Assembly (NCBI GenBank): GCA_015065615.1
Contig: SVPY01000007.1
Span: 1 to 64,000 of the forward strand
Reading direction: 5' to 3'
From: Oscillospiraceae bacterium
GTDB lineage: Bacteria > Bacillota > Clostridia > Oscillospirales > Acutalibacteraceae
Length of the DNA stretch: 64,000 bases
Of the stretch, positions 54,734 to 57,831 are shown one piece after another. How positions within the stretch are numbered: the stretch's first letter is position 1; each line of letters begins with the position of its first letter. Both the position numbers and the translations under genes were made by a program. The notes under the pieces were generated by a model. The model saw nothing but the letters and a program-made list of their open reading frames with translations, had not been told where the DNA came from and did not search any database.

Positions 54734-54804
54734 TCGGTGGGTTATGTTTTTGGAGTTGTTTCAAAATAAAAAAGAAAAGGCGGAGGGGGTTCCGCCTTAT
54801 TTGG

Positions 54805-55533
54805 TTATTTAATTGCTGCTTTAAGTTCTTCGAGAGTCATGCCGGTGACAGTGTCTTTTATACTTACAGCACCGATTTTCACTTCAATCAAATCGCCGTT
54901 ACGTGCCTTTACAGATGAAGAAAAGTCACCTTTTTTATCAATCAGATTGCTTTGAAGTATAGCCTTGTCATTTTCAATTTTGACCATAAAAGGCTCTGTT
55001 GCGCCGTAGTAATTACCGAAATTGCTGTCTTTAGATAAGAACAGCATATAAGTTCCGCCGATCTCAGGTTCAATATAGAGGGAGTCCTGAATGTTCAAAG
55101 TAATGATTTCTGTTTTTGTAGCAGGCTTTACAATTATGCCTGTTTCATCAATAACGGCATCAGATTTTTCGAGGTTAATTCTTTCAATGTAACGATGGTT
55201 TACAAGGATGCTGCTTTCCGTAAAATCGCCCTTTACAACTTCACTTACAGTAAATCTGTAAAGTCTGCCTTCTACGTAATCGGTTTCGGATTCTTTTGTT
55301 ACATCGTTAATATCACGGCGCATATTCCAAGTTTTTTCAAGCTTTTCATACTTGCCGATAACAACGAAATCAGCCATTTCAGCCATTTCTTCTGCACCTA
55401 ATGAAACAGGGTAATCGTAATGAATTTGTATGGAATTATTATTAGGTGTTGTACATCCTGTGAAAAACAAAGCTGAAATCATCAAGACTATTGCAAGAAC
55501 TGAAGATATTTTTAAAATTTTAGTTGTTTTCAT
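54805..55533 (-). CDS. lipoprotein sharing an extracytoplasmic domain with 56096-56947
   Basis: Lipobox ISALFFTGC; EMADFVVIGKYEKL..LYRFTVSEVVKGD..GGTYMLFLSKDSNFGNYYGATEP. Confidence 0.75.
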   Translation of the reverse strand: MKTTKILKISSVLAIVLMISALFFTGCTTPNNNSIQIHYDYPVSLGAEEMAEMADFVVIGKYEKLEKTWNMRRDINDVTKESETDYVEGRLYRFTVSEVVKGDFTESSILVNHRYIERINLEKSDAVIDETGIIVKPATKTEIITLNIQDSLYIEPEIGGTYMLFLSKDSNFGNYYGATEPFMVKIENDKAILQSNLIDKKGDFSSSVKARNGDLIEVKIGAVSIKDTVTGMTLEELKAAIK

Positions 55534-55545
55534 CGTTCTATCTCC

Positions 55546-56088
55546 TTAATTGTATGCATCGGTAACACCTTCTATATCATCAGCTTGAGGTGTGTATATA
55601 GTATTTCTGTTTCGATTGTATCCCATGACTGCATTAGGATTATTAGTATCATCAAGTCCTAATGTATGACCTAATTCGTGACAAGCAACACTTTTAAATA
55701 CGTTTTCGTTTGTTCCTGTATGTGCTATATTAACGTATGCGGTAAATGAAGTAAGAACATAATTAGGTGTTGAATGAGGTTGCATATAACCGTAATAAGT
55801 CGATGATGACTCATTTACAATTGTAATAGTATTAGAGGAAGAACTGGAGTAACTTATATTATATCCAACAGCTGAAGTCCAACTTGACATCGCTGTTCTC
55901 CAAAATGTTTTGTAAGTTGATGATGAAGTTGAAGTATTAATTGCTCCTCCCCAGGTGTATGTTGCCCTTTTATCTGCTACTTTATAACATAACAGATCGT
56001 AAGCAAAAATTTGAATTGTTAGAGAAAATACAAGCATAACCGCAATTAATAGTGCAACCATCCTCTTTAAAACATTGTGTTTATTCAT
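55546..56088 (-). CDS. secreted matrixin-like (M10/metzincin) metalloprotease
   Basis: N-terminal signal peptide; HELGHTLGLDDTNNPNAVMGYNRN (HExxHxxGxxD/H plus Met-turn). Confidence 0.88.
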   Translation of the reverse strand: MNKHNVLKRMVALLIAVMLVFSLTIQIFAYDLLCYKVADKRATYTWGGAINTSTSSSTYKTFWRTAMSSWTSAVGYNISYSSSSSNTITIVNESSSTYYGYMQPHSTPNYVLTSFTAYVNIAHTGTNENVFKSVACHELGHTLGLDDTNNPNAVMGYNRNRNTIYTPQADDIEGVTDAYN

Positions 56089-56095
56089 AGTAAGC

Positions 56096-56947
56096 TCACC
56101 TTTCTTTTATATAATTAATAAGTGTATCTAAATCTGTTTTTGATATTGTATCATTCATAACCGGATACAGAACATTAATCTTGATTATAAAACCCGTAGT
56201 ATATCTATTGCTATCAATCATTTTACTATACTGAACTTTTAAAGAGTCACTTTTTAATTTGCTATTTAAATTAGGTACATCGCTAATTATGCTTATTGCA
56301 CCGGGTTGAGTAGCAAGTTTATAGTATCCTGTTGCTTCATCTTTTTTTAAAAACAAAATGTATTCATTACTTGAGGATTCATGATAAAAGTGAAACGGAT
56401 TTTGAAAATTAAATTCGTATTCCCAATACTTGTATATATCGTAATCATCAGTATATACTTCGATTTTGTCAAGTGTTTCACCTTTTAAAACATCATCAAT
56501 TCTAAAAGTGTACAGTGTTGACGAAGTATTTATATACTCTACACCATCAGATGCATTTATAGGTTCATATCTTGAAAATGAATCAGATTGAACAAAGTCA
56601 AAACGATTTTCATTGGCGTATGTTTTATTATAATACAATTTGCCTCTGGCAATCAAATCCGATTTTTCTATCATTTCATCTAAAGTGTATGATACATCAC
56701 CACTAAGTTCGATATATACTTCGAAGTCAGGATTATCGGTAGCGTAATCGATTGAATCGCTATCTCCCGAGCCTTCAATTTCAGGTGTTTGGGTGGTTGG
56801 GTTGATGTTAAAGAGGAATACTGCAATGATTGCAACAAGAAAAACTGAAATAATGGATGTGTATTTAATTAGCTGTTTTTTCCTCATTGCTTTGTAATCT
56901 GCCATTTTTTGGAAAACAATTTTCGTAATCTCATCAGAGGTTTTCAT
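56096..56947 (-). CDS. single-pass membrane protein, candidate anti-sigma factor with extracytoplasmic domain
   Basis: Short cytoplasmic N-term (MKTSDEITKIVFQKMADYKAMRKKQLIKY), one TM, large ectodomain; start overlaps the end of the ECF sigma gene. Confidence 0.7.
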   Translation of the reverse strand: MKTSDEITKIVFQKMADYKAMRKKQLIKYTSIISVFLVAIIAVFLFNINPTTQTPEIEGSGDSDSIDYATDNPDFEVYIELSGDVSYTLDEMIEKSDLIARGKLYYNKTYANENRFDFVQSDSFSRYEPINASDGVEYINTSSTLYTFRIDDVLKGETLDKIEVYTDDYDIYKYWEYEFNFQNPFHFYHESSSNEYILFLKKDEATGYYKLATQPGAISIISDVPNLNSKLKSDSLKVQYSKMIDSNRYTTGFIIKINVLYPVMNDTISKTDLDTLINYIKER

Positions 56948-57500
56948 AAGTAAATCCCTCCTTTGTAAGCTCAGATTTCAGAGAATTGCGGGCGCGGTAA
57001 ACAAGGGTTTCGATATTATGGACTGATTTTTTTAACACGGATGCAACTTCTTTACAGCTTAAATCCTCAAAATAAATAAGCCACAATACCTCCTTATACT
57101 CAGGCTTTAATTTTCGCATTGCTTTGTGCAGCGCTATTTTCTCTTCTTTTCTGATATAGGATATTTCCAGGGAATTTTCGTCCTTAATTATATCCTTAAT
57201 ATCATCAAGAGAAACTTCATTAGCTTTTTGTCTTTTCTGTTTTCTAAGGTAATCAAGCGCCTGATTTCTTGCAATGGTGTAAAGCCAGGTTTTGAAAGAG
57301 CCTTTGCCATTATCTTTCGGTTTCTTTGTGCCCAAAAGCACGAAAGTGTTGATAGCAAGCTCTTCGGCTGTATGTACGTTATTTACAAAGCTGTTAAGAT
57401 AAAAAATCATACCGTCTTTATAGTCTTTTATTATTTCGGCAAGACCCTCGTTATCACCTTTTTCCCGAAAACGGCGGTAGCTACTTGCACCGTTATCCAT
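56934..57500 (-). CDS. ECF-type sigma-70 family factor
   Basis: Region 2 GSFKTWLYTIARNQALDYLRKQKR; region 4 LKPEYKEVLWLIYFEDLSCKEVASVLKKSVHNIETLVYRARNSLKSEL. Confidence 0.93.
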   Translation of the reverse strand: MDNGASSYRRFREKGDNEGLAEIIKDYKDGMIFYLNSFVNNVHTAEELAINTFVLLGTKKPKDNGKGSFKTWLYTIARNQALDYLRKQKRQKANEVSLDDIKDIIKDENSLEISYIRKEEKIALHKAMRKLKPEYKEVLWLIYFEDLSCKEVASVLKKSVHNIETLVYRARNSLKSELTKEGFTYENL

Positions 57501-57831
57501 GGCCGGCTCCTTTCTTTATTATTTTTTACGCTTTGGGAAAGTATCGCGATTTCTTTCCCTTTTCACCTATTACACGTATATTATAGCATAAACCTCACAG
57601 TATTTTTTATTATTTTTTTTGCACTGTAAATAATTTCTCCGTCAAAATATGCAAAGTTCAGCTAAAATAAGGGCAAACTATGAGCAATAAAGAGAATTTA
57701 AAAATATTAATTATTTTGTGGAATTTTATAGAATTTTGTGGTATAATTACGGAGTGTAACAGTAATTTATCGGCAGGAGCGCCGATTTAAATAAATGAAT
57801 ATACTGGGTTTTGTTAAAAGGAGAGTAAATA

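Follow-up and report, generated by a model that had tools for sequence, protein, structure and literature searches.

Within the window (the whole 64,000-nucleotide stretch of DNA that was analysed, from contig SVPY01000007.1 of an Oscillospiraceae bacterium), the region 54805-57500 carries an ECF sigma factor gene, the gene of a predicted anti-sigma, a secreted matrixin gene and a lipoprotein gene, and its features strongly indicate that all four are transcribed together from a single dedicated promoter. The ectodomain of the predicted anti-sigma and the lipoprotein both appear, in structure models, to have a TIMP/netrin-like OB fold, i.e. the fold of the metzincin inhibitors. The reading that we prefer, by analogy and with nearly even confidence, is an autoregulated ECF sigma operon around a metzincin/inhibitor-fold pair, in which the anti-sigma would be a protease receptor and the lipoprotein a decoy or immunity copy. 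Bacteria encode MMP-like proteases, and the control of these is scarcely known. Since the inhibitor-type fold would also form the ectodomain of the sigma regulator, the locus offers a direct, testable link from an extracellular protease to gene expression, and suggests that the cell senses and restrains the protease directly at its own surface.

The earlier note had described four consecutive minus-strand genes, and each was recovered as an open reading frame with exactly the ends that it gave: the sigma factor at 56934-57500 (188 aa), the membrane protein that is the predicted anti-sigma at 56096-56947 (283 aa), the matrixin at 55546-56088 (180 aa), and the lipoprotein at 54805-55533 (242 aa). 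The first two genes overlap by 14 nt, the matrixin gene follows the membrane-protein gene after a gap of 7 nt, and the lipoprotein gene follows the matrixin gene after 12 nt. An intrinsic terminator ends the operon on the same strand at 54745-54815, with a GGCGGA hairpin and then a T-rich tract (MFE -13.8 kcal/mol, z -4.1 versus shuffles). The predicted ECF promoter, GTGAGGTTT-N13-CGTGTAAT, lies at 57569-57598 of the minus strand, 69-98 nt 5' of the sigma start. The assignment to a single operon follows from these overlapping or nearly touching genes, the terminator 3' of the last gene and the dedicated ECF-type promoter.

The promoter motif was derived by comparing the regions 5' of related sigma genes. 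The window site is the sole copy with no mismatch in the 2.65 Mb genome, and no further site at one or two mismatches is present in the whole of it; in the window, the mean chance occurrence at up to three mismatches is 0.17. The strict form is found 5' of 8 of the 61 non-redundant related sigma genes, never on the reverse strand, and in none of 20 shuffles (rough counts, as the shuffles preserve 2-mer blocks only). The upstream region of a paralogous module in the same genome, on contig C60, has a more divergent version. Because the exact promoter is unique in the genome, the sigma factor would mainly or only drive its own operon, and its outputs would be the matrixin and the lipoprotein.

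The sigma factor consists of regions 2 and 4 only and is thus a plain two-region ECF factor (PF04542, E 4e-12; PF08281, E 1e-12; TIGR02937, E 1e-28). The ECF sigma gene with an overlapping membrane-protein gene, as noted earlier, is confirmed. Of the 295 genomes of the order, 83 contain orthologues of the sigma factor (44-67% identity) or remoter relatives. The membrane protein is predicted to comprise a cytoplasmic N-terminus of ~29 aa, a transmembrane segment at ~30-47, a low-confidence linker at ~55-85 and the TIMP/netrin-like ectodomain. In almost all of ~60 orthologous or related loci the sigma gene is overlapped by a gene with the same N-terminal ~30 residues (MK[TSN].[DE]E...) and transmembrane segment, while the ectodomain varies. 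As this N-terminus and membrane segment accompany orthologous sigma factors with differing ectodomains, the single-pass protein, previously called a likely anti-sigma, is very probably one, and would bind the sigma factor. A DUF4179 match in the paralogue is weak and below threshold (E 0.04). In the clostridial SigI/RsgI systems SigI is not an ECF sigma factor, and the RsgI ectodomains are carbohydrate-related. They resemble the window's sigma family in joining one conserved cytoplasmic anti-sigma part to many swapped ectodomains, and differ from it in that the ectodomains here are TIMP-like, serpin, M23 or others without assignment.

The matrixin (family M10) carries a signal peptide and no apparent prodomain, and scores 39.5 bits against PF00413 (cut-off 24). 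In the PDB, the sequence closest to it is MMP-8, followed by other MMPs. With the motif HELGHTLGLDD and the Met-turn residue Met155, the protein is the secreted metzincin that it had been taken for. Residues H137, E138, G140, H141, G144 and M155 are invariant in an alignment of ten matrixins. As third zinc ligand, Asp would take the place of the canonical His of the MMPs.

The lipoprotein has the lipobox FTGC, with Cys27 as its sole cysteine. Outside the membrane it is homologous to the membrane protein (BLASTP E 6e-7, 23% identity), and one profile retrieves both proteins, which bears out the shared domain proposed in the earlier note. Searches of Pfam and NCBIfam with the two proteins gave no significant match to this domain, and no TIMP was found by sequence-profile searches of the PDB; the likeness to TIMP is therefore a statement at the level of the fold. 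The AlphaFold2 models were calculated from the window proteins and their relatives in named genomes, with no eukaryotic sequence, TIMP or template in the input. Both models are of moderate quality (mean pLDDT 69 and pTM 0.59 for the lipoprotein, mean pLDDT 59 for the anti-sigma), and they are not fully independent, as they share the same sequence set. In Foldseek searches of the PDB, the best 16 matches of the lipoprotein model are all TIMP-1, TIMP-2, agrin NtA or PCOLCE NTR (probability 0.84-1.00), after which the probability drops to 0.28 or less. The best 10 matches of the anti-sigma ectodomain are all TIMP, NTR or NtA structures. The E values of the TIMP/NTR matches range from 2e-3 to 0.23.

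Given that this fold is that of metzincin inhibitors, a physical link to the matrixin is the natural hypothesis. The pairing of a matrixin with a TIMP-fold partner is like that of the animal MMP-TIMP system, although the window proteins have no disulfides, no free N-terminal Cys and no detectable sequence homology to animal TIMPs, and inhibition is only putative. They are not placed in the TIMP family proper, as there is no Pfam or PDB sequence match and the ectodomain has no Cys. TIMPs chelate zinc via a free N-terminal Cys. With the ectodomain Cys-free and the only Cys of the lipoprotein presumably lipidated, inhibition would need another contact; the missing TIMP-like N-terminal Cys is the main mechanistic doubt on inhibition, and binding or cleavage would still fit. 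NTR-type domains that are not known as protease inhibitors also occur (agrin NtA, PCOLCE).

Comparison across genomes strongly indicates that the TIMP-like domain and bacterial matrixins are repeatedly paired. In this genome, each of the three matrixins is directly followed by a TIMP-like protein. Such a domain accompanies 31 of the 42 matrixins of the order (29 downstream, 1 upstream, 1 fused) and 14 of 41 in named genomes, counts that are not unbiased estimates, since neighbours of matrixins were part of the set on which the domain profile was iterated. A fairer measure comes from searching whole genomes with a profile built on the sigma-linked family (window, C60 and a sibling species): outside this genome, about 9 of the 21 matches adjoin a matrixin, where the matrixin density gives a chance of ~3e-4 per match. 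In the named genomes a single-sequence scan with the window matrixin found nothing, and an alignment-based scan found 40 loci. The named-genome pairs are from gamma-, alpha- and deltaproteobacterial, planctomycete, acidobacterial and Opitutae MAGs, from Laceyella and from the archaeon Methanimicrococcus; plasmids of Brevibacillus and Paenibacillus also bear a matrixin/TIMP-like pair. As the pairing is found in several phyla, matrixins accompanied by a TIMP-like fold may be common among prokaryotes.

The arrangement of the pair varies. At L030:1495-2547 (G180:C9) a single secreted protein has the TIMP-like domain fused N-terminally to the catalytic domain of the matrixin, much like a prodomain, and at L094, L097, L146 and L167 two or three tandem TIMP-like lipoproteins stand behind one matrixin. 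In loci of the proteobacterial type (L062, L064, L068, L074 and others) the TIMP-like gene is 5' of the matrixin gene, and the conserved region of its product seems to start immediately behind the probable cleavage site of the signal peptide, a feature shared with animal TIMPs. Other TIMP-like proteins stand alone: two tandem surface proteins at L023:394-1900 (G001:C152), with no sigma or matrixin adjoining on the stretch read, and orphan lipoproteins or membrane proteins at L140-L144 (G305, G132 and G312, of another family of the order), which adjoin neither a matrixin nor a sigma. Nothing here supports a phage origin for the pair, as none of the 16 IMG/VR matrixins on viral contigs (L098-L113) has a TIMP-like partner and phage records searched with a TIMP-like query gave no match.

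The interpretation in the earlier note is supported in part only: the four genes, whose co-occurrence was surveyed as it had proposed, do not travel together. The C60 module encodes a TIMP-like membrane protein, a sigma factor (60% identical), an anti-sigma and a lipoprotein, and no matrixin. The sibling species (G001) has a sigma factor (76% identical) and an anti-sigma with a TIMP ectodomain, again with no matrixin, beside genes that flank the C60 module. A conserved four-gene cassette is thus rejected. As neither module has it, the matrixin cannot be a site-1 protease that this sigma family always requires, and the sigma switch in general would not need it. The sigma module is probably older than the matrixin, with the window copy having moved and gained the matrixin gene. 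An independent operon in another family (L093, genome G112) combines a sigma factor that is only 23% identical, an anti-sigma with a TIMP-like ectodomain and a matrixin, and this recurrence favours function rather than accident.

Both halves of the operon resemble known systems. The potempins and karilysin of Tannerella were considered as a precedent and set aside, as none of the papers found concerned a potempin structure by its title. In Listeria the TIMP-like lipoprotein Tim is released through cleavage near residues 49-55 by the metzincin Mtz (Boichis et al. 2021, PMC8235301); the measured outcome is this cleavage and release, not inhibition, and further pairs of this type are known from Bacillus, Brevibacillus, Lysinibacillus and Clostridium (PMC8235301). 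By description, the Listeria pair is like that of the window: a secreted metzincin gene is followed directly by the gene of a lipoprotein that is TIMP-like by predicted structure. Unlike the window, it has a CI/Cro-like switch, no sigma or anti-sigma and no second TIMP-like domain on the regulator. Adjacent genes for a metzincin and a TIMP-like lipoprotein are found in the window, in 29 other downstream pairs of the order and on a Brevibacillus plasmid. For the matrixin/lipoprotein half, the earlier description of the system as undescribed is consequently too strong. In the literature searched, the Listeria pair is the one studied bacterial matrixin/TIMP-like pair, and it is without dedicated sigma signalling.

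The regulatory half may be compared with SigV-RsiV of Bacillus (PMC4183432, PMC5014341), also an ECF sigma factor with a single-pass anti-sigma. RsiV is both a receptor and an inhibitor of lysozyme, the binding of which leads to site-1 cleavage and regulated intramembrane proteolysis (PMC5014341). By analogy, binding of the inducing enzyme, and perhaps its inhibition, would be expected of the window ectodomain. The ectodomain of RsiV is a different domain that binds lysozyme, whereas that of the window has a predicted TIMP/netrin-like fold and its candidate enzyme is encoded in the operon. It is plausible that the locus combines known kinds, an ECF/anti-sigma enzyme receptor and a Mtz-Tim-like pair, and that the broader novelty lies in inhibitor-tipped anti-sigmas.

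In the preferred reading, the TIMP-like ectodomain would be a receptor that engages a metzincin, either the cell's own matrixin or, where the copies are without one, that of another cell. This engagement, or a cut in the 30-residue linker, would expose the anti-sigma to site-1 cleavage; the site-2 protease encoded in the genome (PF02163, E 1e-61) would act next on the anti-sigma, and the sigma factor would be freed. The freed sigma factor would drive essentially its own operon, giving matrixin and more of the TIMP-like lipoprotein, which, anchored at the surface, would cap or compete for the matrixin and so shield the cell and switch off the signal. In this way the anti-sigma would act as a sensor tipped by an inhibitor-type domain, of which the lipoprotein would be a decoy or immunity copy. 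We infer the engagement of the matrixin, the route of sigma release and the buffering by the lipoprotein.

The same four genes could form a self-contained switch, in which the matrixin is the site-1 protease that cuts the anti-sigma linker, the lipoprotein buffers, and the level of secreted protease or the health of secretion is reported instead of an external enzyme. The protease gene is placed between two homologous targets, the anti-sigma model has a long low-confidence linker (55-85), Mtz cuts Tim membrane-proximally at about residues 49-55 (PMC8235301), the genome has no second exact sigma promoter, and a similar arrangement arose independently in L093. Sigma/anti-sigma(TIMP) modules nevertheless exist without any linked matrixin, and a secreted matrixin as site-1 protease is not an established arrangement of regulated intramembrane proteolysis, so that we consider this switch unlikely. 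The C60 module, which still encodes TIMP-like surface proteins without a matrixin, is in keeping with a role in defence: the ectodomain would sense foreign metzincins (host MMPs or those of competitors), the output would be inhibitor lipoproteins, and the matrixin would be a later, optional weapon or processing enzyme. Serpins near related sigma factors, in some cases as part of the anti-sigma, point the same way, as do the characterised gut serpins (siropins), which are reported to act on human proteases (PMC5127057). Exposure to such proteases is hypothetical, however, the TIMP-like fold may not inhibit MMPs, and across the order the TIMP-like domain is tied to self-encoded matrixins; such a module seems quite improbable.

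The sigma and matrixin genes might also be neighbours by accident: a mobile matrixin gene of the Mtz type would have inserted into a sigma operon, and the TIMP-like ectodomain would be an unrelated use, as a sensor, of a common surface fold. The plasmid-borne pairs of Brevibacillus and Paenibacillus, the link of the Listeria mtz-tim genes to phage or mobile elements (PMC8235301) and the TIMP-like orphans without a matrixin would suit such an origin. However, the lipoprotein of the window clusters with that of C60 and with the sigma-linked family rather than with the partners of other matrixins, so that only the matrixin looks acquired. It would have arrived, moreover, next to the very fold with which matrixins are paired elsewhere, and L093 is a second, independent case; a chance landing is therefore judged very improbable.

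Serpins are found in 13 of the 63 related-sigma loci, either within 4 kb downstream or as the anti-sigma ectodomain itself (L252, L287, L250, L253, L265, L267, L268, L270, L273, L275, L281, L286 and L289). In L252 and L287 the serpin is fused and forms the ectodomain. The seven serpins tested, including that of L252, match the Pfam family with E 1e-45 to 1e-92; the call for L287 is based on a local serpin profile. Genomes that were searched for both families contain 10 pairs of a sigma and a serpin gene within 6 kb of each other, all on the same strand with the serpin downstream, versus ~0.14 expected. That serpins were recruited in parallel to this sigma family suggests that protease sensing is a general strategy. 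We tentatively propose, while holding it somewhat doubtful, a class of ECF anti-sigmas with protease-inhibitor ectodomains (TIMP-like here, serpins in relatives) that would serve as bait receptors for extracellular proteases, the response being more inhibitor and, in the window, also the cognate matrixin. No description of serpin- or TIMP-tipped anti-sigmas was found in the open-access literature searched. If the proposal is true, inhibitor-tipped anti-sigmas would do for proteases what RsiV does in the sensing of lysozyme. Two further anti-sigmas of the same family have an M23 peptidase domain as the ectodomain (L237:1874-3154 and L261:4722-6635).
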